Below the pieces are notes generated by a model. That model searched no databases, had not been told where the DNA came from, and saw only the letters and a program-made list of their open reading frames with translations. A DNA stretch of 64,000 bases, taken from positions 16,071,701 to 16,135,700 of the forward strand of contig NC_092662.1 in assembly GCF_032118995.1 (NCBI RefSeq), given 5' to 3'. Shown in pieces: positions 11,447-63,766 of the stretch (position 1 is its first letter; each line of letters opens with the position of its first letter). The stretch comes from Asterias amurensis. Taxonomy: Eukaryota; Echinodermata; Asteroidea; Forcipulatida; Asteriidae. Both the position numbers and the translations under genes were made by a program.

Positions 11447-30261
<18,815 letters not shown>

Positions 30262-34351: not shown

Positions 34352-35671
34352 CTAACAATGGAATATTTTTCGCAGGACATCTATGCAATCTTTTCGAAAG
34401 CGTCTATTTGCAATCCCATAGATTAAAGGGTTAACCACGTTGTTCATAAACAGTATGGGCTTGAGGTTGAAAACAGCATCGGCAGACACGGGAGGCGTAC
34501 CAGTTTGTCCAGCATCACCTCCGGTTAGCGCGGTCCCAGCGTAAACTCCTTGCGGCAGCCATGTCAGGATGAACACCACACTGGTAAGAAATAACATACG
34601 GGTGGTTTTCCGTTGCAGGGACTGACCGTTTCGATTGCCGTCGTTGCGGTTTGTTTCCACGGCGTCATTAGCACGTCGGCCCTGGTCTCCGTCCTCGGTG
34701 GATGCGGTCCAGGCTACGGTGGCATACTTGGCAGGTCTGGCAGGCCTATCTGGTGACTCCATAGGCCCATTTCCTTGGTGGACCGTAACTGGGTCCGGGA
34801 GGATGGCCGCCCCGGAATCAGACGCACTCGAACCCGCCACTGTTGAGAGGTTCATCACGGTCAGATCTGTGCCTCTTGTGGGGTACGCAGACGTCATTGT
34901 TGAGACTACACGCTCTCCAACTTGTCGCTGTCCTCTGTTTGAGCCACCAGGAGAAACGCGTGGTCGCACCTCCACCACGCCAACACCCACTCTAACATGT
35001 TGCCTGATTCGGTAGTACACTTTAGAGTAGCACACGATAATCAAAATGAACGAAGTTAGAAAAGTGATTACCTGAAACAAGGTTTTCAGAAAAACGACGA
35101 ACAACGGGCGATAGTCGGATGGAAGAGAAATCTCCACAACTAGAGGTACGTTTGTAATGATGGACAGCACAACGCATCCCACCGCTGCCACCAATGTCCT
35201 TTTGTGCGTCAGGAAACGTTTGTACGGGCGGCACACGCAGTCGTACCGGTCAAATGCTATGACACCAGTCACTGCAACTGTGGTACCAATCGCAATCTTG
35301 TCCGGTATCTCAAAGTACAAAATTGCCGGGGAGACCGTGCCCTGCGTCGCGGCAGCGTGGAGGAAAGCTAAGTTTCTGAAGCGGAACAGACAGACGAAGA
35401 GGTCAGATACTGCAAGCACCTTGACAAGGGTACTGGTAGTGGTCTTATTGGTGCTGTTGTTACCAGATTTGATAGAGTAGACGTGGAGGATGAGGCTGTT
35501 TCCAAGAACACCTAAGATGATTACAAACACGTAAAAAACAATCTGGAACACAATCCATGGGTCGGTGTTTTGGGTAGGACCGGGCTCGAATCCACCAGCA
35601 ACGGTCGTGGTATCTCGGGGATCAAACACCAATTCCTCGGTGATGTTCTCTGGAAATCTTGTGTCTCCCAT
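34352..35671 (-). CDS. Rhodopsin-class orphan G-protein-coupled receptor, intronless
   Basis: A 439-aa seven-pass plasma-membrane receptor in one exon, ATG at 35671. There is a short N-terminus with one sequon (NIT, residue 9). TM1 has GNSLIL, TM2 LAVSDL, TM3 ends in FDRYDCVCRPY (the G-protein-contacting DRY motif), TM6 has TWLPQ in place of CWxP, and TM7 has NPLIYG. A third intracellular loop of about 130 residues (roughly 225-355), rich in Pro, Gly and Arg, is long for the class. The C-tail is short and ends in Cys, a possible lipidation site. The Cys normally at the top of TM3 is absent and no Cys is visible in the second extracellular loop, so the usual disulfide seems missing. The general fold suggests an invertebrate orphan peptide- or amine-type receptor; no ligand can be assigned. 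Confidence 0.9.
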   Translation of the reverse strand: MGDTRFPENITEELVFDPRDTTTVAGGFEPGPTQNTDPWIVFQIVFYVFVIILGVLGNSLILHVYSIKSGNNSTNKTTTSTLVKVLAVSDLFVCLFRFRNLAFLHAAATQGTVSPAILYFEIPDKIAIGTTVAVTGVIAFDRYDCVCRPYKRFLTHKRTLVAAVGCVVLSIITNVPLVVEISLPSDYRPLFVVFLKTLFQVITFLTSFILIIVCYSKVYYRIRQHVRVGVGVVEVRPRVSPGGSNRGQRQVGERVVSTMTSAYPTRGTDLTVMNLSTVAGSSASDSGAAILPDPVTVHQGNGPMESPDRPARPAKYATVAWTASTEDGDQGRRANDAVETNRNDGNRNGQSLQRKTTRMLFLTSVVFILTWLPQGVYAGTALTGGDAGQTGTPPVSADAVFNLKPILFMNNVVNPLIYGIANRRFRKDCIDVLRKIFHC

Positions 35672-37320
35672 AACTGCCGGGTGTCTGACTGGCTTGTTGG
35701 CTATTGTTGGATAACGGTGCCTGCTGTATATTAAGTTGTCGATCTCTCGAGTCGACCATGCGAAGTGAAATACGCGGTTGAGTCCATGCTCTTAAATAGT
35801 TGCAGACAAGATAATCGGAGACTTTCCCGCCTAAAGTGAAAAAATCGCCATCCGCGGAGGTTAATACTCATTTGCAATGTAAAGTTGCGGAACAGTGGGC
35901 AAAAACACATCACGTCAGTCGCAGGTTTGATGAAATACTATGCATACATGCAGACTGTTGCCTTGTGACTTATCAGTTGTCTTGGTAACGCAAATGTTGA
36001 CGTGTTAAGGACTCAGGTGACTGAAACCGTTTGCAATTCTCAGATAGTGTACTCTAATCATAGTGCGGGCCGCCCTTGTCTTTCGGCTGATAAAAAGTCA
36101 GACTTCCCTACACACATCACGGGTCATTAACAAACCAATTTGTGGTTGTAAACAGCATTGCGTGTGACAAATTAAGGCAGTATTGGTGTTTTTGGTAATT
36201 GTCAAAGAAAATACTAGCTGTGACATTTTTTTCTTCTTCTTCATTTGTCTTTTCCTTTCTATAAAAAAAACTTTCATGGGTGACGTTTGTTGTTTCTTTC
36301 ATGATCATTTCCCAAAGTCGCCTGATGCGGGTCTTCTTTGGAGATTATCAATAATGTCAACACATTTTTTTTAATGATTTCTAATGAATTCAGACGAAAT
36401 AATTTCAGTACTTTTACACAGGGTTTAAAAGAGGATCTATAACTGTTTTTAATACTACTATTTCTGTTCTCTGTTTTTCTGGTTATGGAAGGACTCACTC
36501 TTAAAATGATTGGCAACACAAACTTTTGGCTTTGACTTTAAAAAAAAAATAAAAAAAAAAAAAAGTAAGAGAAGAATTACTTAGAAAAATCTTTTAGCAA
36601 CACCAATTCTATTGAGTGCACTAAGTGCTGACCTGAAAACTAGGCCGGGCACCTGTAATTCACCCCTAATGTCTTGTTAGTCATTAATGCCCCCACTGCG
36701 CCCAGGAGTGCGATAATGGTCAGAATGACTGATTATATAGTTCAGTGTTCAGTAAAGTAGGACTGCCACAGGGATGACATGATCTTTACACTTCCAGAGT
36801 TGAGAGTTGAGATGGGGTTTTCTTTTCAATAAGAAAATACTTTCATCTGGAACAACAACCGAAAGGCATTTTTTTTTAGGGTTTCGGATTAAAATGGCTT
36901 TGGATTGAAGAAGAATAAGACGACCACGCTACAGAAAAAAATATTTTGACTAAATGCAAAAGGTTTTTAAGAGCAGGTGTAAAGTTATGCAGTCTGTAGT
37001 CGTCATTGCTCAGAAACACAAGGCTGGAATTTTGGATGGAAAATCCATATGACCTTGGGGCTTTTGCAGCTTAAACTCTTTACTGTACCCAAAACACATC
37101 TTTACAAGTTTGAAAACAAAATAAGAAAACAAGTTTCTACTCAGTTGATTGTATAACCTTTTTTTATTATTTGAAAGCACTTAAAGAAGATTAATCTAAA
37201 TTTGTCTTGTCAAATTTACAAAAGATATTTATCGGGTTAAAAATCAACATTTTAAACATAATATGATGTCCGAGTCATAGATGTTAAATTTGCATTGGGG
37301 ATAAAGAACTTTATTTGGTT
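35672..37320. other. Upstream flank of GPCR, no gene supported
   Basis: Contains an A-rich run at 36539-36565 and a short M1-like fragment (ttggtaattgtcaaaga) at about 36173-36215. No exon recognised. Confidence 0.5.
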
Positions 37321-37324
37321 TTAC

Positions 37325-37700
37325 CCTTACACCCAAGTAATATGCCTACGATTGTTTTCCACAGAGCTCGGGAAAGTACCGAGTATACAGTGCTTACACG
37401 CATTTATAGTGTAAGGTTAAACCCAAATGATATTCTATATCCCCCAATGCTTATTTAACATCTACTAAATCGTTGCTGTAGCAACTGCTATAGGATTCCA
37501 CTGCCTCTAGCAACCGCTGGGCAAGCTTGGTTGAATTGTGGTAAGACATCTGCTCTAGCAACACAAAGGTCAGGGTTCGATTCCCATCAGACAGATTTGC
37601 CCATGATTTTTTTTACAGAGCTCGGGAAAGTACTGAGTAAACAGAGCTTACACACATCGGCGTGAGGGTAAAACCAGATAATATAATTTATATTACAATT
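37325..37700 (+). mobile_element. tRNA-derived SINE and an adjoining truncated relative
   Basis: At 37530-37690 an A-box-like 'ttgtggtaagacatctg' and B box 'gggttcgattccc' lead to 'acagagctcgggaaagtactgag' and 'acacacatcggcgtgagggta'. The same tail without the tRNA head occurs at 37325-37455 and at 52630-52750. Confidence 0.65.
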
Positions 37701-37861
37701 GAAGGTATTACAGTTGAAAACACAAGATATCAGGACTTCTCAGGGCATGCAATCCAGTGTGAATTTCAAGCCAAGAATGATTGGTTCAAAAACCTACCCC
37801 CTTTTATTCAAAACTTTCTTCACAGTGTAAATAAAATGTACAGCACAAACAAGTAAACAAC

Positions 37862-38055
37862 AGGGCCCTATTTCATAAAGCTGATAAGCACAAAATACTG
37901 CTTGAAAAATCTCGTTGCTAAGGTAAAATTGAGTCGGGCACCAGCCACAACAATGCAAGCTTAATGTAATTTCGGCTGGTAACCTGATTCTGCTAAGCAA
38001 TACCTTCTGTGCTAAGCAAGTTATTGTGCTTACAGGCTTTATGAAATTGTGCCAT
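37862..38055. mobile_element. GGGCCC-family MITE
   Basis: 'cagggccctatttcataaagctgataagcac' at the left and a diverged complement 'ggctttatgaaattgtgcc' at the right. Confidence 0.75.
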
Positions 38056-38225
38056 GATTGGATCTTCCATTTTTGATTTTCTCCAATTCGACTCATTGTA
38101 ACCAAATCGAGGCTGAAAGGAAAAAAAGTATGGATCCTTCTTTGTACAATGAATACCAGCATCCATAACTGTTATTGGATACAGGGAACTTGACCAAGAC
38201 GGTGGCAGCATGATCAAGGTCTGTT
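38045..38225. mobile_element. Foldback repeat, 'ccatcttg' family
   Basis: Inverted arms 'gatcttccatttttgattttctc' and 'ttgaccaagacggtggcagcatgatcaagg'. Related copies lie at 50294-50482 and 58905-59078. It ends 22 bp from the ANKRD45 stop. Confidence 0.55.
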
Positions 38226-38247: not shown

Positions 38248-41223
38248 TCATCTTCTGTGTGGCTTTTCGGGTGCTGGATAAAGAAAAGAAAAAGGAAGGG
38301 AAAACAAATTTGGGTGTAAAAAAGTTTGTTTTTGTTGTTGAAAATTGTTGAGTGACTTCGTGGAAATAGAAACATAAGAAGTTGGTAGTTGATTTTCCCT
38401 TTCCCTTTTGGACTTTATCATTTGAAATGAAAATAACTTACGAGGTTCGGACATTTTGACGACGATGGGTTCAAGAATCTCGCGGAGGACCTGTTTCTGT
38501 TTGTTGAAGTCCGCCACCGTTAAATTCTCTCCTCCGTTATCAAGCCATTCCTGCTTCTCTGTGCATGCATTCAGGGCCGTCATCTGTAAGTTCATTTTTA
38601 TTGATTAGTTCTGGTTGTGAAGCCTAGGACTCTCAGAAAAGAAAACTAAATCCCTACACTAGCCAAGAACCCAAAAAAGAAAAGACAAAGAAGGCATTTT
38701 CAGTTTCTAGATGTAAGAGGAAGACCACAAATAATTATCTCAGGGAAAAACTGTGCAGTCCTTATAGTGCCCTCAGCGAAATTCCAGGGCTGGGTTGTAC
38801 CAAGATTCTGTTTGTTTTCTTACCCGTTCATCCTTGGTGAGTCTGCCCTGGACCTTTTGAACATCCTCCACATTCTCTTTAATCTCTCTTAAGACGGCAA
38901 GAAGGGCACGGCGGGCTTCTATTGTAACAATTACACAATGAAGATGGGTTTAAGGGAAGGTATACGTTTGGCGATCAGTCTTAAAGCCATTGGACACTTT
39001 CGGTAAACAGTATTGTCCAAAGGCCCACACTTTGTGAGTCACAACTGATATAAAAAATAACAAACCTGTGAAAATTTAGGCTCAATCGGTCATCGGAGTC
39101 GGGAGAAAATAACGGGAAAACCCACTCTTGTTTCCATGCGTTTCGCCGTGTCACGACATGTGTTTAAAATAAATCCGTAATTCTCGCTATCGAGAATTGA
39201 TATTGTTTTAATGTATTCTAAAAAAGTAAAGCATTTCATGGAACAACGGCGACGAAATCTCCTGCCACACCGGCACATTACTTCAAAGGTCACAGGTTCT
39301 AATCCTTCCTATGTCAATGTTTCTTTGTTCAACCCGAAATTGAGCAAAAATTTGCAGGAAACCGTTCACTTACCAGACCAGTTTAGGTACTGCGCACATT
39401 TTTCATGTTGATATCTCAATGCTGTCTCGTGAGGGCGCTCTCCATGGCTCGTCCTAACCTGAAGATTGGCACCGAACTGAATCAGTAGTTTTAAGCAGGC
39501 TAGTTTACCCCAGGCTGCAGCATGATGCAGAGCTGTGTACCCTTGTAGCAATAAACAAAAACAATTTATACAAATTTATTTGAATTTGACGCTACTAAGT
39601 CAGTGACAAAAGCTATTAAAACTGTGATATCATATTACAATCTTTACAATGAAGTATAATTCAATACAACTTTTGGCTACAAATAAATTTCAAATAAAAG
39701 TTTAATTATATGCAAATTTTCAAAGACCTGTAAACCAATTCTTTCAGCCATAAATAGTTACTCTGTTCATAATCTTGTTACATTGCTATGGTGTGTGTGG
39801 TGGGGGGGGGGGGGGGTCATGTTCAAGTCAACATTTTCAAAAAGTGCCTTCCGAAGCCAAAAAGCATCCTCACTGAGGCCAAAGGAAGCAAATCATTGGA
39901 TAATAGCTGTTCATTGTTCGTATTAACAACAGGTGCGTGTGTAGCGTTTTCGCGTTATGCAAGGCTATTGCAGGTTATTTTTCCTTTAAAGTTTTCTGCA
40001 GGATGTTTTTCACAACTGTGAGGTGGGGGGGGGATTGTCATTCCTTTTTATACCTCTCTCTGTTGAGGAGTCCCCATCAGCTCCTTTCTCGAGAAGTTCC
40101 TTCACCATATCCTCCCTGTCCAAGATGCAAGCCATGTCCAGCGCTGTGCGTCCTGTGCTTGGATTTCTCATATTGGAATCAGATCCCTGTAGTAGAAAAA
40201 ATATCAATAATCAACATCAATACAATTTTCGTTTGCAGGCTAGGCCTGATGTCTCGTTTTGAAAGGGCACAGGCACAAATGTTTTCTTTGGTAAAAAAGG
40301 CCAGTACACGCGTCTGGGAACACACTCTTCGTGGTTCTCAGACGCGTGTCCATATGATTTGTACACAAAGGACAAACATGTGCAGATAATTCTCCACATT
40401 TGCACATTTGTCCTGGGAAAAAAATCCGCGCACGGTCAGGGACAATCAGCACTTGTAGTGTAGTGGTAGTGGTAAAACGGAGTGGTTGGGGACTGAATTA
40501 CGGTAAGAATTTATTATTTTAAACATTTTTTGAGATTGCGGAGTGGATTTTCTGTCGCCCCCAGGGCCAATGAGAGTTCAAAGGACACATAGAGCCTAAT
40601 TTTGGCAAGAAAAAAAAGAGATTTGCGTTGACAAAGTTAAAACTTTATAAAAGAACCAGACAAAAAGCACACTCATTATTGTCGTGAGAGATGTACGAAA
40701 CGAAACGAAGAGAAACCGCATAAATAGTTCTAGGAGTAGATCGCGACGTTATCGCAACTAGACTATTTCTATTTTTTATTTAATATGCTAGCTAGGCTAG
40801 GGTCTTTAGCGAGCATGGTGAGCTAGCTGAGGAGGGTATAGGCCTAATTCATTTTGTCAAACGACCGTTCGTCTTCTTTATTTAATTAAATGTTTAATTA
40901 AGCATTACTTAATTTCAATTCCCTTAAATTAACCCAAATATCTGCAAAATGCTATGAGAAATAACCTTTTCAATGAGCAATTTTAGTATCTCCATATGGC
41001 CCTCGGTGCAAGCGATCTCGACCGGGGATCTGCCGCCATCGTCCCGGGAGTTCAACTGGCCCTCGACCCGCTCGTGGTACGGGTCGTCCTCCTTCGAAAA
41101 GCAATCTTGAAGACGGGCTGCGTCGCCTTTTGCGGCACACTGCAACACGATGTTGAGCCGTTTGCTGGATTTCTTCGGCTGAGAGGCAACCTCTGTTTCT
41201 GAATTTGAAGGTTCAACTGTCAT
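38248..41223 (-). CDS. ANKRD45: Ankyrin repeat domain protein 45 orthologue
   Basis: Six coding exons: 40966-41223, 40054-40186, 39374-39541, 38824-38918, 38442-38583, 38248-38273 (822 nt, 273 aa, close to vertebrate ANKRD45). ATG at 41223; all introns are GT-AG with phases 0,1,1,0,1. Ankyrin repeats cover roughly residues 28-150. The exon 3 segment GYTALHHAAAWGKLACLKLL parallels human GYTLLHCAAAWGRLETLKAL, and the C-terminal helical part keeps ACTEKQEWL and EPIVVKMSEP, matching the human ACRAKNEWL and TPIFTKMTTP regions (from memory). ANKRD45 is a small ankyrin protein linked to cilia and cell division in vertebrates; here it is named by sequence only. The intron 1 donor, GTTATT, is weak. 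It is divergent from KLHL20, about 1.3 kb away. Confidence 0.9.
38605..38795. repeat. Dispersed repeat, partner of 23448
   Basis: 'gttctggttgtgaagcc', 'agccaagaac' and 'agatgtaagaggaagacca' match the unit at 23448-23700. It lies in an ANKRD45 intron. Confidence 0.5.
38981..39250. mobile_element. M2 MITE, right end missing
   Basis: TTAAAGCCATTGGACACTTT at the left, with M2 sequence to 'aagcatttcatggaacaa'. A SINE fragment with B-box-like 'caggttctaatcc' follows at about 39255-39345. It lies in an ANKRD45 intron. Confidence 0.8.
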
Positions 41224-42546
41224 TTTTTGAGGAAAATGTTGGGTTTTCTATTAATTTTTTTTTCGTGATGTCAAAACCTGACATCGACAGCGTTCGGTTT
41301 CCAGGATGACTGACCTCTAACAACATTATTATTTTAATAACTTATTTATATCAATATTTTTATATTTTTATAAACATAATACAGTTATTATTTAATTTAG
41401 AACATGTAATTCATTTATTTTGTATGAAATAAAGAAACATATTATACATTTAATTAAATTTGTTGCCTGTTTTCACAAGAATTGCAGAAAGAATGTTTAC
41501 CTGACCAATTTTGAAGATTGGTGGCGCTATTTAATTTAAAGGTCAAAGATTCTGCTGAATTGACGCCATTTTCGCCCTTCAAACATGTCAAAGGAGATTT
41601 TATAACTCTTTTTGAGTGGAAAATTAAACAACAATTTCTGTGTGGCAAGTAACAGACTCCCTGAAAATTGTGTAAGTTAATTTGTTTTTCATGTTTGTAG
41701 TGAAAATTTGGGGGTTTCGTTGGTTAAAATTTAATTTCTTCACCGTTCCGCCGCGTTCGTTGCTGCGGATCGACAGGCAGCAAGTCACAAAAGTTGAATT
41801 TGCATTTTTCTTGGCTGTATTTTATGATTTATGATTTATGTTTTAAAATTAAGATAAGCAATTCTATTTTTATATTGGCGTCCACTACTACCAATTACTT
41901 AATGCGTGCTCTAGGGACATTGAAAACCCTCCAAAAATAAAGAGGTTTTTGTGCCTAAATGCCGCCCGCAAAATTCAATTTTTCATTCCATTTAAATTAA
42001 TCTTTATTTACATTGTCAATTTTGTGTATGGATTGAAGGAAGGAATACCCGATTGAAGTGGTGTGGCTGTGGGATGACTCATTTCATTAATTAGTCATTT
42101 TTTGTGTTTTTATTTTGTAACGATTTTTGGGGTCTGCCACCATCTTGTAACTTAATTTTACACAAGAAAAAGGAATAGCCTATCGCATCTGAAAATAAAT
42201 TAGAAACTTTTTATTCCATGACATATTAATGAATGGGTGGGCGGCAGGATATAGACATTTTTCCACCGTCTCTTTCAGAAAAGATATCCCTGTCCGACTA
42301 CAACTATATTTCACTGTTTCAAAGGTGGAAAGATGTTTCAATTCAGTGTGCTTTTGCCAAGCATCAACAAATGTGGGTGCAGAATGCCAGAAAAAATCCT
42401 CGGGAAAACCTGGCCATGGAACAGGAAGAATTTTACATGACAATAACTCACCTAAACTGGACTTTGTTTTTCAAGTTTAATGTAAGTTTTTGTTCATATG
42501 ATTTACTGCAGCATATAGGAGTCCTCTGCACAAATCATTCTTCAAA
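41224..42546. promoter_or_regulatory. Shared divergent promoter region of ANKRD45 and KLHL20
   Basis: 1,323 bp between the two ATGs, which point away from each other. AT-rich, with no mobile element recognised, unlike most gaps in this window. No TATA box or single core motif can be assigned. Both 5' UTRs must lie here. That it works as one bidirectional promoter is inference. Confidence 0.5.
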
Positions 42547-45500
42547 ATGGCAGGGGCCCAACAAGTGTTTGAGACGCCCTCACAGTCGACACGCTTCGTC
42601 TACACTTCAGACCGCCACCCGCGAGAAACGTTAGAGATGATCAACATTCTTCGCAGGCAGCGTGAACTTTGCGACGTCGTCATCGTAGTCAACGAAAACA
42701 AAATCTATGCCCACCGGATAATCCTGTCTGCATGTAGTCCGTACTTTCGTGCAATGTTCACCGGAGAGTTGGCCGAGAGTCGCCAGACGGAGGTGACGAT
42801 ACGAGACATTGACGAGCGAGCCATGGAGCAACTCATAGACTTTGCGTATACGTCGACCATCACGGTAGAAGAGAGCAATGTACAGACGCTCCTTCCTGCG
42901 GCGTGTCTCTTGCAACTGTCCGAGATTCAGGAGGCGTGCTGTGAGTTTCTGAAGAGACAGCTCGATCCATCGAACTGTTTAGGCATCAGGGCATTTGCCG
43001 ACACTCACGCCTGTAGGGACCTGCTGCGAGTGGCGGATAAATTTACACAACAGAACTTTTTGCAGGTAAATAGAAGGTCGTGTCGTAGACTTGGCTACAC
43101 TGGCTACACAGCAGTTAACGGTTGTATTGCTTCTGACTGGCACCTCTGAACAAAGATATTGACAAAATAGGGAAACTGCCAGCATAGGGCTATAAAGTTC
43201 AGTTGGTAAAGTACAGACACATTACTTCAGAGGTGTTGGTACAAATTCCAGTCTAGAAAACTTTTTTGGTGTTCAACCCAAAATCATGTAAACATTAATT
43301 CAATTCAATTCAATTCAATTTTTATTGGTCCTATATGTCAGTTTTCTCTGTAGTGTATTATTTGAGGCCTGGGCCAAATTTTAGAGAGGTGCTTTACACA
43401 AAATCTAGCTAAGCACAACAAAATTATGCTTACAACAACAAGGTTGCTGCCCAAACTACCATGTCACATGTACAAGTTGCGACTGGTGTCCTGCTCGTTT
43501 TTGCTTAGCAGAAAGTTGTTAAGCAGTATTATCTGGGTAAGCACCTCTATGATATTGTGACTTTGATTTGATCTTCTTCTTCCTTGGTGATAAGGTCATG
43601 GAGAGTGAGGAGTTTATGCTTCTGCCAGTCAATCAGCTGATCGAGATCACGGGCAGCGACGAGCTGAATGTACGCAGTGAAGAACAGGTCTACAGTTCAG
43701 TCATATCGTGGGTCAAATACAACATACCGGAGAGGAGGAGTGAATTATCAAAGGTAAGAACCAGCCTTGTGGGTTCTTGGCCCAGTTTCATGGCTCTGCT
43801 TACTGCCGAATAATGCACTTATAATCACCATTCTCCACTTACAGTGCAAGCACCAAATTTCTGCGCTAGCTGTGTAAGTAAAGAATGCCTAGCAATGTGG
43901 AGTATGCATGTCTACAAGCAATCATTCCCTGCTAACACGTGAAATTCGGTTGACGTAAGCGCGGATTTCCCTGCTTCTGTAAGCGCCATTCTTTGCTTGT
44001 GGTAACCAGAGCCATGAAATTTGACCCTTATCTTTAGGTCCTCAATATACTCACAGTGATCTTTTAACAACTTATGTTGCGTGTCATGGCCGAGCCTTTA
44101 AGAGCATCGTACTCAAGCTCTGGTGTTTATCATCAGAGAAGTGATGGTTCGAGTCTCTATGGGTTTGAGTCCCTCGCTTGTATTCTTGAGCCAGATGCTT
44201 TACGATATAACTATTCCATGCTCTCCCCAACCAGGTCCTCCAGCACGTCCGTCTCCCTCTTCTCAATCCCAAATTCCTAGTGGGCACCGTCAGCACAGAT
44301 CTTCTCATCCGGAGCGACGAGGCATGTCGAGATCTCGTTGACGAGGCCAAGAACTACCTCCTGCTTCCCCAGGAGAGACCATTGATGCAGGGTCCGAGAA
44401 CAAGACCCAGGAAGCCCATCCGGTGTGGAGAGGTGCTCTTTGCTGGTAAGGTTGTTGTACTTACAACCCCTTTTCACACTGTATCTCTTATCCCCGTGGA
44501 ATATAGCCCCGCCCGGGGAGGCCACAGAACTTTTTCACCCCAAGGTTACCCCCGCGCACTTTTACACTGTGTCCGTATTCCATGGGGTTCTGGTTGCTTG
44601 TTTCAAGAATAGCCCCTGGCTTTACTGCATACCCCTCTTCCAGAGCAGGGCTGGCTAGTCCCAAGGGTATACCTGTTTGCCAGGCGTTTACCAAAAGGTA
44701 GAAATGTCAACATTTCAACTTACCTCCTTAAATTAGTTTGTTGTTCGTCATGACTCTTACCCATTAAGTGACTGTGACCGGAGGTAAATAGAATATTTTG
44801 TGGAAACAACTTTTCTGTCTGTCTGAAGATTTATTCTCTAGAGTCACAGATCTGTCGGAGAAATAACATGAACATGTGCGTGTTGTAAAGATGTGACTAA
44901 ATCTTCTTTTCTCTCTTGTCTTTGTACCTCAAAATTCAAATTCTAAAAACTAGTCTTATGTCACAGGTTTTCAAGGACTGTTTTCTTTTGTTTTGTAAGT
45001 AATACTACGTACGTAATACTACTTTTTGCGTAAGTAATACTACGCTTTGAGCACCCAACAGGGTGGATATTTGCGCATTACAAATCTTGATTAATATTAT
45101 TATTTATTACTCTAGTTGGCGGATGGTGCAGCGGCGATGCCATCTCCAGCGTGGAGCGGTTTGACCCTCAGAGCGCTGAATGGCGGATGGTTGCACCAAT
45201 GAGCAAGAGACGTTGTGGGGTGGGCGTGGCAGTGCTAGATGACCTTCTCTATGCGGTCGGAGGTCACGATGGGTCGTCGTATCTCAATAGTATAGAGAGG
45301 TAAGTTTAAAAGAAAATAATATGTACCGAGAGAGAGGTGCAGATTTAATTGTTAACTATCGGATAAAACCCTTGGTTTACACAAGGTTCAATCCTCATAT
45401 ACATTAGTGCCCTCGTCACTGACCCAAAAAAATTACGATAATCTTTCTCAACTCCCTGTGTAGAATACAGCCTTAGGCTGCCTGTGGCGCTCAAAGGTTT

Positions 45501-47489
45501 TTTCACACACAATTTGAACTTCTACTTATACCCGTGGGTGAAGAGAAGCAATTATAATGAAGCATCTTGCTCAAGGAGACAAATGTCATAACCGGGATTT
45601 GAACCCTCAACCCAGAGACTAAACCACCAGAACTTGAATTTGATACTTGGCCATGTCACCCTTAAAGAGTCTGATTCCTTTGTACAAATCGAAAATTGTT
45701 ACTATCAATGTCATTGTGTATACTAGGAACATGGGTTGTCTCATTCTTTATAATTTCAGTGTTGTTAAGTGCATCAAGATTTCTTCAATCAATATGATTG
45801 ATCTATTATTAATAGAATATTTTTGTTTCTAACTTCCCTCCTGAATATTAGATACGATCCTCAGACCAACCAGTGGAGCAGCGACGTTGCACCGACGAGC
45901 ACCTGCAGGACCAGCGTCGGCGTCGCTGTGCTGGATAACTTCATGTATGCAGTGGGCGGCCAGGATGGGGTGTCGTGTCTCAACATAGTAGAAAGGTAAG
46001 AGTATGTTTGTGGAAACGATACCAAATGTATTTTGTCTTTTTAACTTCAGAGTGCTCAAACATAAGGTCATAGACGGTAAATACTCTTAAAGTCAAATAG
46101 GTAAGGAGCCCTACAGCTGATGAAAGTGAGAAAGGATTCTTCAAAAGATTGTTTGAGAAATTTGTCACAAAAAATATTTGAATCTGAGAAAAAAATCTTG
46201 AATAAGTCGTTCCTCAGATTTCTGAGCGTTGGTGTTTGTTTGTAATAATGCTGTGGCAGATGCATTTGGTACATGTCGTCACCTTTGTAAATTGTGTTAA
46301 TAAAAAAAATAAATTTAATTGAAATGTTAAGTAGGATTTGAAACTTTGCATAGTGCAAATACGATATGGAAAGGTTTGCGGTAACACTATGTAATGACTA
46401 TCTCTAATGAGTTGGGGTGGTTCTGAAACAAACCGTTGGTTTCAACTTGATGTTTCGATCAGTATGCTCTGATCGTCTTCTGGAGAAAGCTGTTTGGAAG
46501 ATACTGAAATGTTATCATCATAACAAGAAGGAATGCATGTTTTATAAGTAACCAATTGAAAATAACATATTTAGAGCATTTTTATCTTTGGTACCTTGTG
46601 TGTATCTACTTACAGGTAGAATTATAACTTTAACTGTTGAGTTGCAGTCGATACAAAAACACAAATGTTTCTACTTAGGTTTTGCCTTACATATCAATTT
46701 GAATTATTTTCTGTTTTTACTTACAAAGATACGAACCTCACGCTAATCGTTGGACTCGTGTAGCCTCCATGAGTACGCGTAGACTCGGTGTCGCCGTGGC
46801 CGTTCTCGGTGGCTTCCTGTACGCCGTAGGGGGCTCGGACGGCACGTCACCCCTCAACACTGTCGAGCGCTACGACCCCCGGTCCAACAAGTGGACGCCG
46901 GTCGCCCCCATGGGGACGCGGCGGAAACATCTCGGTTGCGCCGTCTATAACGATATGTTGTACGCTGTCGGGGGGAGAGACGACCAGACTGAGCTGAGCA
47001 GTGCGGAGAGGTACGATCCGACGACGAATACGTGGAAGCCCATTGTCGCCATGAATTCAAGACGAAGTGGGGTAAGTTTTGTTTTGTTTCTCCTCTTGTG
47101 AATAAGAATAAGGGAGGGTTTGATTAGGTGTAAATCCTTGTTTGAATGAGATTTATTCTTATAGTTGGATTGCCCCAAAACGCCAATAACAGACGTCTTT
47201 GATGAAAACAAAATGGAAACGTGCATGAGCTTTGTCGGGTTACTTTGTTTGTCTTAGTGAAACAGTTAACAAGAGTTGTCGTTCTTTTTTTCCACAGGTT
47301 GGACTAGCGGTAGTCAATGGCCAGCTGATGGCTGTTGGAGGTTTTGATGGCACAACGTACCTGAAGACAGTGGAAGTCTATGACCCAGAAACAAAATCGT
47401 GGCGCATGTGCGGCAGTATGAACTATCGACGGCTCGGTGGAGGGGTTGGGGTGGTCAAGCTACCACAATCAGAACCCAGTGTCTGGTGA
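42547..47489 (+). CDS. KLHL20: Kelch-like protein 20 orthologue, CUL3 ubiquitin-ligase adaptor
   Basis: Seven coding exons: 42547-43065, 43595-43753, 44235-44445, 45116-45299, 45852-45995, 46729-47071, 47298-47489 (1,752 nt, 583 aa; human 609). All introns are GT-AG, with phases 0,0,1,2,2,0. The ATG has a good context (aaaATGG). A BTB domain (about residues 30-140, with [20 protein letters not shown]) dimerises and binds CUL3. A BACK domain follows (about 145-250), then six Kelch blades from about residue 290 (repeated YAVGG and ERYDP) ending GGGVGVVK. Long stretches, such as [16 protein letters not shown] and [10 protein letters not shown], equal the human protein as I recall it. In vertebrates KLHL20 directs CUL3 to substrates such as DAPK1 and PML; that is known for the family, not shown here. 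The shorter N-terminus relative to human is the only clear difference. Confidence 0.97.
43185..43290 (+). mobile_element. tRNA-derived SINE fragment in KLHL20 intron 1
   Basis: A-box-like 'agttcagttggtaaag', then 'cattacttcagaggtgttggtacaaattcc' (B-box-like). A related piece lies at 39255-39345, and a bare A-box region on minus at about 58860-58895. Confidence 0.5.
43368..43560. mobile_element. GGGCCC-family MITE, diverged
   Basis: 'cctgggccaaattttagagaggtgctt' at the left and 'aagcacctctatgatattgtg' at the right, with 'cttagcagaaag' inside. It ends 35 bp before KLHL20 exon 2. Confidence 0.6.
44085..44220 (+). mobile_element. tRNA-Leu-like SINE abutting KLHL20 exon 3
   Basis: A box in 'atggccgagcctttaagagc', 'gtactcaagctctggtgttt', B box 'gggtttgagtccct', then 'cttgtattcttgagccagatgctttac'. 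The 5' two-thirds of the SINE stop about 15 bp from exon 3 (44235). Confidence 0.75.
44465..44680. repeat. Dispersed repeat shared with 21038
   Basis: 'tcttatccccgtggaatatagccc', 'cacttttacactgtgtccg' and 'ttcaagaatagcccctgg', in the same order as at 21038-21310. It lies in KLHL20 intron 3. Confidence 0.6.
45420..45625 (-). mobile_element. SINE, antisense, in KLHL20 intron 4
   Basis: 'gtgaagagaagcaattataatgaag', 'catcttgctcaaggagacaa' and 'ccgggatttgaaccc' (B box on minus) match the SINE at 8205-8530. Confidence 0.7.
46370..46510. mobile_element. Copy of the hairpin repeat in KLHL20 intron 5
   Basis: 'ggtttgcggtaacactatgta' and 'gatgtttcgatcagtatgctctgatcgtcttc'; the cleanest hairpin arms of the four copies. 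Confidence 0.6.
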
Positions 47490-58904: not shown

Positions 58905-59078
58905 TTAGAAAAGTTGCCCTTATCATGCGACTGCCATCTTGATCATGTTCCCTGTATCCAATCACAGTAATGGATGCTTAAAGAAACCAGACTATTCACC
59001 CTTCGAGCCTCGATTTTGTTGCATTGAGCTAAATGGGAGAAAATCAAGATGGCCGCTTCATGATAACGGCCTATTGGA
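58905..59078. mobile_element. Foldback repeat, 'ccatcttg' family
   Basis: 'cttatcatgcgactgccatcttgatcatg' at the left and 'caagatggccgcttcatgataac' at the right. It ends 27 bp left of the EGF exon. Confidence 0.65.
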
Positions 59079-59105
59079 ACCCATGGCTGTAACTGCAATC
59101 CTTAC

Positions 59106-62100
59106 CTGGTAAACATATACACTTGAATCCTCCCCTCTCTCGTAAACACGTCCCAGCTTCCGAGCACGGGTTTCCCGCGCAAAAGTCAATGTCAATCTCA
59201 CATAGTTCTCCGGTGAACCCCTTCTCACACTGGCACACAAACCGTTCGTGAGTGCCGTCAAACAGTACACACTGACCACAGTTGTGGCAAGGTTGCGAGT
59301 GGCACGGGCCTTCTGGTATCTCACAGAATTTGCCGACCCAACCGTCCTCACAGTGACACCAGAAGTCATCACCGGCTCCGACGTTACTGATGCATGTTCC
59401 CCCGTTCACACACAGATCATGCTTACATGGGTTCCTCACTTCCTTACAGCCCTTGCCGGTGAACCCTGGCTGGCACACACACAGGTACCCGCTGATCATG
59501 TCCAGGCAGGTGGCCTTATTCTCACAGGGATTGACGGGCTCACAGTCATTGATGTTCTTCTCGCAGTGTTCTCCTGCAAATCCGACGGAGCATCGGCAGT
59601 GGTACGACTCCAGCCCATCGATGCATTGACCATGTTGGCACGGCCCACTGGCACAATCGTCTATATTTGTTTCACAAGTTGTTCCTGTGAAACCAGAGCG
59701 ACAGGCGCACATAAACTCACCCTCTTTCGAAAAGCAAGTACCCTGGTTCTCGCACGGCTCATTCAAGCAAGCGTCTATCCACACATCGCATCTCTGGCCT
59801 GTTCTTGTCACTGGGCAGATGCATTTGTACATCCCCACACCATCAATACACACACTCCGATTGCCTGGTATTTCTTCCCTATCGCCGACGCATGGTGAAC
59901 TTGCACACTCATTTATATCATCTACACACAGGGTTCCATTGAACCCCGATGGACAATCACAGATAAAATGTCCCACCAGGTCCTGGCAGGTACCGCCATG
60001 CATGCACGGGTTTGAGCCACACTCGTCTACTTCTGTTTCGCAGAACATTCCGGTGTATCCCGTCAGACACATGCACGCAAACGCATCCTCTAAATCCTGA
60101 CATGTTGCGTTGTGCTGGCATGGGTTGCTGCTGCATTCGTCCGTGTGGTTCTCGCAATGTATGCCTGTGTACCCCGCTCGGCATTGACACCAAAACCCGT
60201 CAATTTGATCCACACACTCTGCGCCATTCAAGCAAGGACTACTGCTGCACTCATACAATTCAACATCGCAAAGAAATCCAGTCACTCCTGACGGGCACGC
60301 GCATTTAAATCCCTCCGGGGAAGCGTTACACGTGGCGGAGTTCATACAGGGGTTGCTCCAGCATGCATCAATCCAGATCTCACAGTGTTCCCCGGTTCTT
60401 AATGGAGGGCAAATGCACTTGTAACTATTCACCAAATCGAGGCAGGTACTCCCTTGGGATCCGCCCTCCTCACTGACACACGGTGAGCTCTCGCATTCAT
60501 TAACATTGTCCTGGCAAAGTGTCCCCTCGTACCCCGCTGTGCATTCGCATATGAACCCATTAACTTCATCAACGCATTCACCGTTGTGCATGCAAGGCGA
60601 GGACACACACTCGTCTTGTTCGACTTGGCAGTGCAGGCCGGCGTAACCCGCCGCACATTCACACAAGTACCCATTGACCAAATCCAAGCACAGTCCGTTA
60701 TTAAGACATGGTTCACTGTGACATTCCGCAATGTCAGTTTCACAATGAGTGCCTGTAAATCCAGGCAAACAGCGGCACTTGAATCCGTTAACTTCGTCTT
60801 CGCACAGACCGCCATTTTGGCATGGATTGCTCTCGCATTCATACAGATTCACATCGCATAGAGTTCCGGATATCCCAGGCAGGCATAGACATGAGAATCG
60901 TCCCTCTTCATCTATACAAGTTGCATTTCTTGCACAAGGCTCGGACTCGCATTCATTCCTCCCCACGTTACATGTCTTCCCTTCAAACCCTGGTGGACAC
61001 AGACACTCAAATCCATTCGGCAAATCCACACATGTCGCATTAGGATGCACGCAAGGAATCTCCGCACATTCGTCATTATCCACCTCACAGTTGACCCCGA
61101 GGTAGCCTGGTGCACAGACGCATTGGTACCAACCATCCCTGTCCACACACCGTCCGCCATTTTCACACGGCAAACTAAGGCACTCATCCACATTACTCTC
61201 ACAACGAGTTCCGGTAAATCCATCCGCGCAATCGCAGATGAACGAGGTTTTCTCATTTTGGCATGTTCCATTATGAAGGCAGGGGGCCGAGAGGCAGTAG
61301 TCTACATCAAGCTCACAGAGTCGCCCTTGGGTTCCGATCGAACACTGGCAAACAAAGCTGTCTATCCGATCGACACATGTACCGTTTTGTTGGCAGGGAG
61401 AACTGGCACATTCATCTATTTCGGTTTCGCAGTCTTGGCCATTGTAACCTAATAAAGATAAAAGCAAAGATTATTTTACAAACTATCCTGCCTCATTCTC
61501 TAATGAATTACTTTTTCTCTATTGTCCCACCTTTGATTTCATCTGTGTACACCAATTCTTAGAAGTCTGATCTCAGATTTAACGTTTTCTTTTATGGATT
61601 TCTAATCAACGTGTGCATTTTAGATGAAGTAGTTTTGCTGGATATTTACCTACTATTAGCACCTTTACAACGAGTTATCTTTTTGCTTGAAATAACATAA
61701 TTTTTTCTTTGGGGTCATTACCCAAGTATAACCCTGCAATCCAGCTATGAAGTTAACTTACCGTCTTGACAGGAGCAGAAGTACTTGTTAACACCGTCCA
61801 GACACGTTCCATGTAGGCAAGGCTGTACCTCACAGTCATTGATGTTCTCTTCACAATACACCCCTGTGAACCCAGCCTCACACAGGCATATGAAGTCATC
61901 CACCATATCCAGGCACACTGAGTCATGCATACATGGGTCCCCTGCACACTCATCCGTCTCACTACCACAGCTGTGCCCTACAAAACCCGGCGAGCAACGG
62001 CAGTAGAATCCAGCCACCTGATCGTAGCAGACCCCGCCGTTCTCACATGGGTTTGACTCGCAGTCATCGATGTTGATCTCGCAGAAGGCCCCGCTGTAAC

Positions 62101-63766
62101 CATCCAGACAGAAGCACTGGAAACTGCCGATGCCATCCATGCATGTCGCTCCATTGAAGCACGGCCGGCTTGCACACTCGTTGATGTTAGTCTCACAGTT
62201 TGGCCCAGAGTATCCGACAGGGCATTCACACCTGTACGATGCAACAAGATCGAGACACTCTCCGCCATTTAGACACGGTGATGAGACGCATTCCTGTACA
62301 TCAATCTGGCACTGTCTGCCCGTATAACCTGGTGCGCACACACATGTAAAGTCATCTACGAGATCGAGGCAGCCGCCAAAGTTCTGGCACGGTTCTGACC
62401 AGCATTCGTTGATGTCATGCTCACATATAACGCCGTAGTATCCCGGTGCGCATGCACAGTAGAAAGTCCCAATTCCATCAAGGCACGTGCCGTTGTTCAA
62501 ACAGGGACTCATCTCACAGTCGTCTACCAAAATCTCGCAGTGGAATCCTTGGAAACCGAGGAGACAAAAGCATGAGTATCCTCCGATAGTGTCTACGCAT
62601 GTTGCGCCGTTCTGGCACGGCTCAGACACGCATTCGTCAATCTCTATACTGCATGTTTTTCCCGTGAAACCGACTAGGCACTTGCAGATGAAGTCCAGTC
62701 CGATATTTTGACACACCGCGCCATTCTGGCAAGGGTCAGACTTGCAGCGGTTGATTAGAGTCTCGCAGTGGTTCCCGCCGTAGTCTGGCGGACATGCGCA
62801 GAAGTAGCCGCTGAGGAGGTCAATGCATGTTGCATTATTCATGCAGGGGTCGCTGTTACATTCATTTATGTTAAACTCACAGTGGGTACCGCTGAACCCT
62901 AAGAGGCAGACGCATCTATAACTGTTATGACGGTCCTCACAGACCCCATACTGGCATGGAGAGCTTTCACATTCGTTAATCTTGGTGCTGCAGTGTTTCC
63001 CTTTGAAACCAGCCATGCAATGGCACTGGTAGCCACCGATCAGGTCCTCACATCTCCCTCCGTTGTTACATAGTCCGTTAGAACGAGGTCGTCGCCTCCC
63101 CTTTAATCTCTGTTGACACTCGTCAATGTCAAATTGACACCTGTCGCCATTGTACCCGTCGACGCACTTACAGGTGAACCTCTGCTTGTGGTCAATACAA
63201 GTCCCGCCGTGCTCACATGGGTCTGACTTGCAGGCGTTGATCCTTAGGATCTGACAATTCTTCCCTGTGTAACTTGGCTTGCAATCACATTTGTAGTCTC
63301 CACTCAAGTCTGTGCACTCCGCTCCGTGCTGACACGGTTCACTCTCACATTCATCAACGCTGTATTCGCAGTACTTCCCATAGAATCCCGTTGGGCAAAT
63401 ACATGCGTAATCAGCCACTAAGTCCACGCACGTTCCGTTGTTCTGGCACCGTTCCGGCGAGCAGTCGTCACTGTTGATCTGGCAACGCGTTCCCCGGTAA
63501 CCCATTGTGCAAATGCAGGTGTAACTCATCGAGCCATCAATGCACATGGCACCGTGAAGACATGGGTTGGAATCACAATTAGTGGTATCGGTTTCGCAGT
63601 TTGTTCCAATGTATCCGTCGGCGCAGAGGCATTTGTAGCCAGTTTGCGCTTCCTCGCACGTCCCATGATGAAGACATGGCCAGCTTTCGCAGAAGCTCAA
63701 ACGCTCTTGACACAGGGGGCCTTTCCATGGCGGGGAACAAATACAGCGAAAGCCGGATTCAAGTCT
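59106..63766 (-). CDS. Giant EGF-repeat protein, two internal exons
   Basis: Two very large exons, 61762-63766 (2,005 nt) and 59106-61448 (2,343 nt), joined by a 313-bp GT-AG intron in phase 1 that cuts EGF 17 (CSCQDG / YNGQDC). They encode 1,449 residues of an extracellular or secreted protein with about 37 EGF modules and little else. Most modules begin D/N-x-D/N-E-C and have the C-x-D-L/G...F/Y-x-C pattern of calcium-binding EGFs. About 27 of 37 carry CxSxPC, the O-glucose site, and many CxxGGTC or CxNGxTC, the O-fucose site, as in Notch and Crumbs. EGF 6 has a basic insert (RLKGRRRPRSNG). Both ends are open: the right exon starts in phase 0 after TTTAG and the left exon ends in phase 1 at GTAAG. 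No signal peptide, membrane span, LNR or laminin-G domain is visible here. Notch, Crumbs, EYS, SNED1 and fibropellin relatives cannot be told apart. Confidence 0.9.

Follow-up and report, generated by a model that had tools for sequence, protein, structure and literature searches.

A divergent ANKRD45–KLHL20 gene pair of the sea star Asterias amurensis on a conserved but shuffled linkage group

Two complete genes in head-to-head orientation

The window analysed here is a 64 kb stretch of sea star DNA, positions 16,071,701–16,135,700 of contig C15, which has a length of 18,103,274 bases. The genome searched comprises 491,506,623 bases in 23 contigs. The Asterias amurensis assembly is reported with 491.53 Mb, 22 chromosomes and 16,531 genes in the passage available from PMC10625585, which corresponds to one gene per roughly 30 kb, against 1.3 kb for the gap described below. 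Two genes are found in the window with their 5′ ends facing each other, ANKRD45 on the minus strand and KLHL20 on the plus strand. Their start codons are divergent and 1323 bp apart (gap 41224–42546). Such an arrangement across 1.3 kb had been proposed from the DNA letters alone, and the intact gene models bear it out; the interval 38248–47489 proposed with it corresponds exactly to the stop-codon ends of both genes. All introns of the two models end GT–AG. The coding exons are listed with their support in brackets.

40966–41223, minus strand: ANKRD45 coding exon 1, start codon 41223–41221 (splice site and frame; genome match of 177 bits)
40054–40186, minus strand: ANKRD45 exon 2, ankyrin (splice site, frame, Pfam, genome match)
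39374–39541, minus strand: ANKRD45 exon 3, ankyrin (splice site, frame, Pfam, genome match)
38824–38918, minus strand: ANKRD45 exon 4, where the HSP70-lid-like C-terminal segment begins (splice site, genome match, PDB)
38442–38583, minus strand: ANKRD45 exon 5, HSP70-lid-like segment (splice site, genome match, PDB)
38248–38273, minus strand: ANKRD45 exon 6 and stop codon, short (acceptor AG and frame only)
42547–43065, plus strand: KLHL20 coding exon 1, BTB and start of BACK (splice site, Pfam, genome match)
43595–43753, plus strand: KLHL20 exon 2, BACK (splice site, Pfam, genome match)
44235–44445, plus strand: KLHL20 exon 3, BACK to Kelch (splice site, Pfam, genome match)
45116–45299, plus strand: KLHL20 exon 4, Kelch (splice site, PDB)
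45852–45995, plus strand: KLHL20 exon 5, Kelch (splice site, PDB)
46729–47071, plus strand: KLHL20 exon 6, Kelch (splice site, PDB)
47298–47489, plus strand: KLHL20 exon 7, Kelch, with the stop codon (splice site, PDB)

The spliced ANKRD45 model (minus strand, 41223–38248, six coding exons) encodes a complete protein of 273 amino acids in which ankyrin repeats are identified by Pfam. No Pfam family is recognised in its C-terminal segment. When this segment is compared with the PDB, 13 of the 16 hits at E values up to 10 are HSP70-family chains, with BiP as the best hit (E 1.2e-6). The whole protein retrieves 490 generic ankyrin hits from the PDB, which were set aside for identity. The alignment with human ANKRD45 is collinear over residues 4–265 with 78 of 262 positions identical (E 8e-43), and the C-terminus by itself also matches (E 1.6e-14); the human query was consistent with all six oligos printed in the part of PMC6628321 that was available. 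Against the sea star genome at E 1e-5, the protein gives 17 matches. Its own exons account for five, and the remaining 12 cover ankyrin residues 56–184 only, with up to 48 bits. No second or better ANKRD45 candidate is found in this whole-genome search.

The spliced KLHL20 model (plus strand, 42547–47489, seven coding exons) encodes a complete protein of 583 amino acids with BTB, BACK and six Kelch_1 stretches (Pfam). Its PDB matches span the Kelch domain only, and the best five of 89 sequences with E below 1e-30 are all KLHL20 (592–607 bits). Among the matches listed, these chains are followed by designed SAKe proteins (up to 463 bits), KEAP1 (415 bits), the best natural chain other than KLHL20, and KLHL17 (314 bits). 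With the first 296 residues as query, the genome yields 61 matches, including three to the gene's own exons. The next-best one is a 46%-identical stretch on contig C16 with 243 bits, and no second KLHL20 copy is found with this query. Since no second copy of either gene was found, the orthology of both is unambiguous.

An upstream 5′ exon of KLHL20 was considered but finds little support. An acceptor-like site is seen by eye at 42510–42511, without a good donor upstream: five plus-strand donors above 1 bit precede it, and the sole one above 2.2 sits about 30 bp upstream. On the minus strand, a strong splice donor (6.9 bits) is present at 42451, which would be compatible with a 5′ ANKRD45 exon near KLHL20. 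The neighbours of the pair in the window are SLC6-type, GPCR, RING/B-box and EGF-repeat genes, and no Rfam match at gathering score is found within the window. In the 50-kb flanks on each side, inspection by eye of the 30 longest six-frame reading frames (at least 110 amino acids) revealed an ASS1-like exon and transposase-like frames, and no further 1q25 gene.

The gap between the start codons

Three features are distinguished in the gap:

41224–42546, no strand: divergent gap, 1323 bp, mostly single copy
41224–41900, no strand: ANKRD45-side part of the gap, candidate promoter zone, GC 0.30, 16 CpG versus 15.1 expected
42334–42408, no strand: piece of a dispersed repeat family, with seven further matches in the genome, 79–85% identical over 53–77 positions

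The stretch 41224–42510 (1287 of the 1323 bp) matches itself and eight weak loci in the whole genome, compared with at least 93 rows, itself included, for an intergenic control of similar length, one hand-chosen stretch at 36900–38187 for which 40 of 7755 candidates were scored. The seven genomic loci matching 42334–42408 resemble one another over up to about 140 bp, and thus this segment represents part of a dispersed repeat. A single weak genome match is found at 42167–42265. The sequence-only reading had described the gap as free of recognisable transposons; its mostly single-copy character agrees with this, but the fragment at 42334–42408 does not. The window-shared repeat score of the gap is 0. 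Since the same score is obtained for 15 of 48 tiles of equal length, coding tiles included, the gap is unexceptional by this measure. Its internal repeats are two 2-copy direct families of 16–18 nt and three imperfect inverted pairs of 16–22 nt.

The two sides of the gap differ in CpG content. The ratio of observed to expected CpG is 1.07 over 40300–41223 and 1.06 over 41224–41900, drops to 0.52 over 41900–42510 on the KLHL20 side and reaches 1.15 in KLHL20 exon 1, versus a median of 0.56 for 500-bp stretches of the window. The high-CpG side of the gap holds 16 CpGs only, and the 500-bp stretch 41201–41700 dips to 0.70. In animals that methylate gene bodies, CpG-undepleted stretches mark unmethylated DNA. 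An amphioxus passage in the available part of PMC6292497 bears on the same point. Since undepleted CpG has this meaning, ANKRD45 exon 1 and the adjoining half of the gap are likely to form a promoter zone. The KLHL20 side is CpG-poor and carries the repeat fragment, so that promoter-like sequence does not extend as one block across the whole gap.

Motif scans yield no convincing core-promoter or factor motif in the gap. CCAAT and other motifs are at or near the window expectation. TATA-like strings (4 versus 1.0 expected), CRE-like strings (4 versus 1.2, palindromes counted on both strands), forkhead-like RTAAACA (2 versus 0.85) and YY1-like strings (2 versus 1.1) are slightly in excess, which we do not find convincing. 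A YY1-like 12-mer with one mismatch is located at 42136–42147. The 64 kb window contains 12 such 12-mers with up to two mismatches, five of them with at most one, so that one in the gap says little. A cilium-specific X-box was rejected as a candidate: the best match, at 41297–41310, has two mismatches, a quality shared by 31 rows in the window, and the count in the gap (5 found versus 5.5 expected, up to three mismatches) is at chance. Scans for sigma-type promoters and terminators (6 versus 5.4 and 1 versus 0.7 expected) were discarded as evidence, the consensus being bacterial.

Linkage on C15 and the mammalian neighbourhood

In the human genome, we take ANKRD45 and KLHL20 to be divergent and about 45 kb apart, and TEX50 presumably lies inside the ANKRD45 interval. 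Our gene models and searches concern the sea star side of the comparison. On the mammalian side, the available part of PMC8426623 gives a cattle BTA16 list, pooled from several studies, with SLC9C2, ANKRD45, KLHL20 and CENPL in a row. A horse ECA5 region list, as printed in the accessible text of PMC8532986, has 37 names whose order is not positional; it includes ANKRD45, KLHL20, SLC9C2, TEX50 and CENPL, and likewise DARS2, RC3H1, PIGC, CACYBP and PRRC2C. Human KLHL20 is placed on chromosome 1 at 172 Mb in the relevant passage of PMC3280201, and ANKRD45 and TEX50 are merged as one interval in that of PMC10877842.

Chromosome-level linkage was examined with six members of the horse list for which specific family models exist, plus SLC9C2 with a non-specific model, of the 35 names other than the pair itself. 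Five of the six are found on C15, the exception being CENPL:

DARS2: C15 near 0.97 Mb; seven of the 11 matches, the top one among them, with the remainder on C5 and C16; no match exceeds the whole-protein cut-off of the model, exons being scored singly
PIGC: C15 near 2.14 Mb; 4 of 4 matches
CACYBP: C15 near 2.69 Mb; 1 of 1 match
PRRC2: C15 near 2.99 Mb; 2 of 2 matches
RC3H1: C15 near 10.04 Mb; 1 of 1 match
CENPL: C3; 2 of 2 matches

C15 makes up 3.7% of the genome, and the chance of at least five of six genes falling there is about 4e-7; this and the following linkage estimates treat genes as independent and spread in proportion to length. With the exchanger search counted as a miss, five of seven genes are on C15, with a chance of about 1e-6. 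PRRC2 and RC3H1 have human paralogues elsewhere and are therefore weaker markers. Without these two, three of four genes (DARS2, PIGC and CACYBP, with CENPL as the exception) remain on C15, with a chance of about 2e-4. The pair itself is located at 16.1 Mb, and the five linked genes are 6–15 Mb away from it, the nearest at about 6 Mb. C15 thus corresponds to the mammalian 1q25-type region, and the linkage group is conserved but internally shuffled. Because the other five genes are scattered over megabases, the survival of the pair is an exception. Scaled from 16,531 genes, C15 carries about 609, and the chance that a random pair on it would be both adjacent and head to head is near 0.0008 (2/609 x 1/4). 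When the roughly six genes that were open to choice in the sequence-only reading are allowed for, the chance of adjacency is still well under 0.01.

A comparison with the mammalian order SLC9C2–ANKRD45–KLHL20–CENPL shows that ANKRD45 adjoins KLHL20 in the sea star as in the cattle list, whereas sea star CENPL is on C3 and no Na/H-exchanger match at E 1e-3 is found on C15. The 14 matches of the general exchanger model are distributed over C3, C12 and C22. With none of these matches on C15, the idea that SLC9C2 belongs to the block as a third gene is unsupported, though a diverged SLC9C could escape the model. The match of the sea star pair to the mammalian neighbourhood, first suggested for human 1q25, is supported as far as adjacency is concerned, by the cattle row, the horse region list and the shared contig; the human pair is taken to be divergent with a gap of about 45 kb. 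In the Senegalese sole, BAC12D22 carries ankrd45 with histone genes and tmem70, and klhl20 is not listed in the portion of PMC6236887 available, which counts mildly against strict conservation of the pair in that teleost. The end of the BAC or a teleost rearrangement could explain such a list. No paper naming ANKRD45–KLHL20 as a conserved pair was found in the open-access literature searched.

Explanations for the persistence of the pair

We consider it probable that ANKRD45 and KLHL20 are an ancestral deuterostome pair kept adjacent and head to head, with divergent promoters in the gap, and that the pair survives because breaks are costly. A conserved but shuffled chromosome would have kept the two genes together in this orientation. 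The 1.3 kb gap of the sea star would most likely contain two closely spaced divergent promoters. Being short and holding both promoters, it would be a small target for breaks, and a break within it would harm one or both genes, so that few such rearrangements would be kept. The survival of the pair would thus follow from the cost of breaks in a promoter-holding gap, and a common purpose of the two proteins would not be required.

The same arrangement could reflect passive inertia, with the two genes as chance-surviving neighbours on a slow chromosome, regulated independently across a gap without special role. Linkage is indeed common, as five of six region genes were kept on C15, the mammalian gap, taken as about 45 kb, is long, motif counts in the sea star gap mostly stay close to the window expectation, and window-shared repeats are absent from 15 of 48 tiles too. 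Inertia nevertheless has to account for five other genes scattered over megabases, none within 6 Mb of the pair, and for a gap that, at 1.3 kb, is small compared with the genome average of one gene per roughly 30 kb. We regard it as somewhat unlikely. A separation of the two genes followed by independent reunion in the sea star or in mammals is hardly credible. It would draw on the absence of klhl20 from the sole BAC list in the available part of PMC6236887 and on the fact that one non-mammal genome was examined. It is opposed by the presence of both genes on one contig with five other region genes, and by the head-to-head adjacency chance of about 0.0008 on C15.

A different account is that one bidirectional promoter, or a regulatory block with cross-gene enhancers, drives both genes, for example in ciliated or dividing cells. 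The adjacency is conserved, and the CpG zone beside ANKRD45 is undepleted. The available part of PMC6628321 reports that zebrafish ankrd45 is enriched early in ciliated organs and later ubiquitous, and that cultured human cells require ANKRD45 for proliferation; the same source describes the zebrafish mutants as viable with grossly normal cilia, which argues in the opposite direction. According to the accessible text of PMC11317154, ANKRD45 is one of 28 ciliary candidates reportedly with experimental validation. In the gap, the YY1-like 12-mer at 42136–42147 with its one mismatch and the two forkhead-like RTAAACA strings (0.85 expected) would suit such a programme, but 12 YY1-like 12-mers are present in the 64 kb window, five of them with at most one mismatch, and X-box-like matches are at chance (5 versus 5.5 expected). 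Nothing in this analysis links KLHL20 to the programme of ANKRD45, and a human spacing of about 45 kb would preclude one shared core promoter in mammals. A present-day common control of both genes is, in our judgement, very unlikely. The suggestion of a shared promoter or regulatory block, which accompanied the original reading of the locus, is plausible but finds no clear support here: the mammalian gap, at the length we assume, is too long for one core promoter, and the motif scans reveal nothing clear. Its bolder form, in which the gap is a single bidirectional promoter of deuterostome age that couples ANKRD45 (cilium/cytokinesis) to KLHL20 (CUL3 ligase adaptor), tight in echinoderms and pulled apart in mammals, is quite unlikely as well. 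If it were true, ANKRD45–KLHL20 would provide a dated example of how promoters become disentangled.

The pair of divergent promoters guarded by costly breaks remains the reading we favour, and under it the locus adds a new and fairly ordinary case to the retained ancestral microsynteny already known. Irimia et al. reportedly described ancient conserved microsyntenic pairs in animal genomes in 2012. Like such pairs, ANKRD45 and KLHL20 are unrelated neighbours kept together in both the echinoderm and the vertebrate lineage, in this case within a conserved linkage group. Echinoderm examples of conserved microsynteny in the available part of PMC13317027 are Pax1/9, Foxa, Tbx2/3 and Egr. These developmental genes are accompanied by plentiful conserved non-coding sequence, whereas neither ANKRD45 nor KLHL20 is a developmental regulator. 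The same source has ATAC-seq data for the sea star Patiria miniata. With one pair intact and five co-regional genes scattered over megabases, the locus offers a clean example, free of second copies, of the question why some neighbours persist while the rest of the chromosome shuffles.

Head-to-head orientation and a short gap are shared with divergently paired genes and bidirectional promoters. The former are defined by starts less than 1,000 bp apart, as reported for PMC2670823. The sea star pair differs in that no single shared CpG-rich block is present and in that its 1323 bp is the distance between start codons. If transcription in the sea star begins at sites separated by less than 1 kb, and if amphioxus too has a tight pair, the locus would become a testable case of vertebrate promoter disentanglement. 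The available text of PMC6292497 gives the share of bidirectional promoters among neighbouring protein-coding genes as 25% in amphioxus, 12.8% in mouse and 7.8% in zebrafish, and states that, of 372 such promoters considered putatively ancestral, most have disappeared in vertebrates. These proportions would be in keeping with a pair that is tight in the sea star and looser in mammals.

The C-terminus of ANKRD45

The last 87 residues of ANKRD45, encoded by exons 4–6 (window 38918–38248), resemble the C-terminal lid of HSP70 in a PDB sequence search. Members of the HSP70 family account for 13 of the 16 PDB matches at E up to 10, the best being BiP (E 1.2e-6), and a Pfam search with the same 87 residues gave no family match. 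The combination of ankyrin repeats with a putative HSP70-type lid is an unusual architecture.

Co-regional genes on the contig

Of the five co-regional genes, DARS2, PIGC, CACYBP and PRRC2 cluster outside the window, at 0.97–3.0 Mb, within the first 3 Mb of the 18.1-Mb contig. They are far from the ANKRD45–KLHL20 pair at 16.1 Mb and may form a loose sub-block.

Other gene-like frames in the window and its flanks

Frames in the window (frame search, all on the minus strand) and in the flanking stretches L031, L034 and L035 (by eye)
2197–2574 and 22874–23200, minus: two similar SLC6-type N-terminal exons
34352–35791, minus: rhodopsin-class GPCR, single-exon frame, 479 aa
53772–55262, minus: RING and B-box protein, one long frame
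59071–63766, minus: EGF-repeat protein, in a pair of very long frames of 799 and 673 aa
L031 6740–7282: further SLC6-type frame, by eye only
L034 4766–5143: ASS1-like (argininosuccinate synthase) exon frame
L035 446–2692 and 7891–9999: two piggyBac-type transposase-like long frames in tandem

Exons of SLC6-type (SNF) transporters occupy the minus strand at 1–23200, with all five tested frames matching. Since the two N-terminal exons are similar, their sequences suggest a tandem array of SLC6-type genes. The GPCR frame is placed between these exons and ANKRD45. Proline/serine-rich units are repeated internally in the RING/B-box frame, as seen by eye.

To the right of the window, the ASS1-like frame lies at ~25 kb and the piggyBac-like frames at ~30–40 kb. 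Human 9q33-34 carries ASS1, PRRC2B and RC3H2, which may indicate a paralogous link with 1q25.
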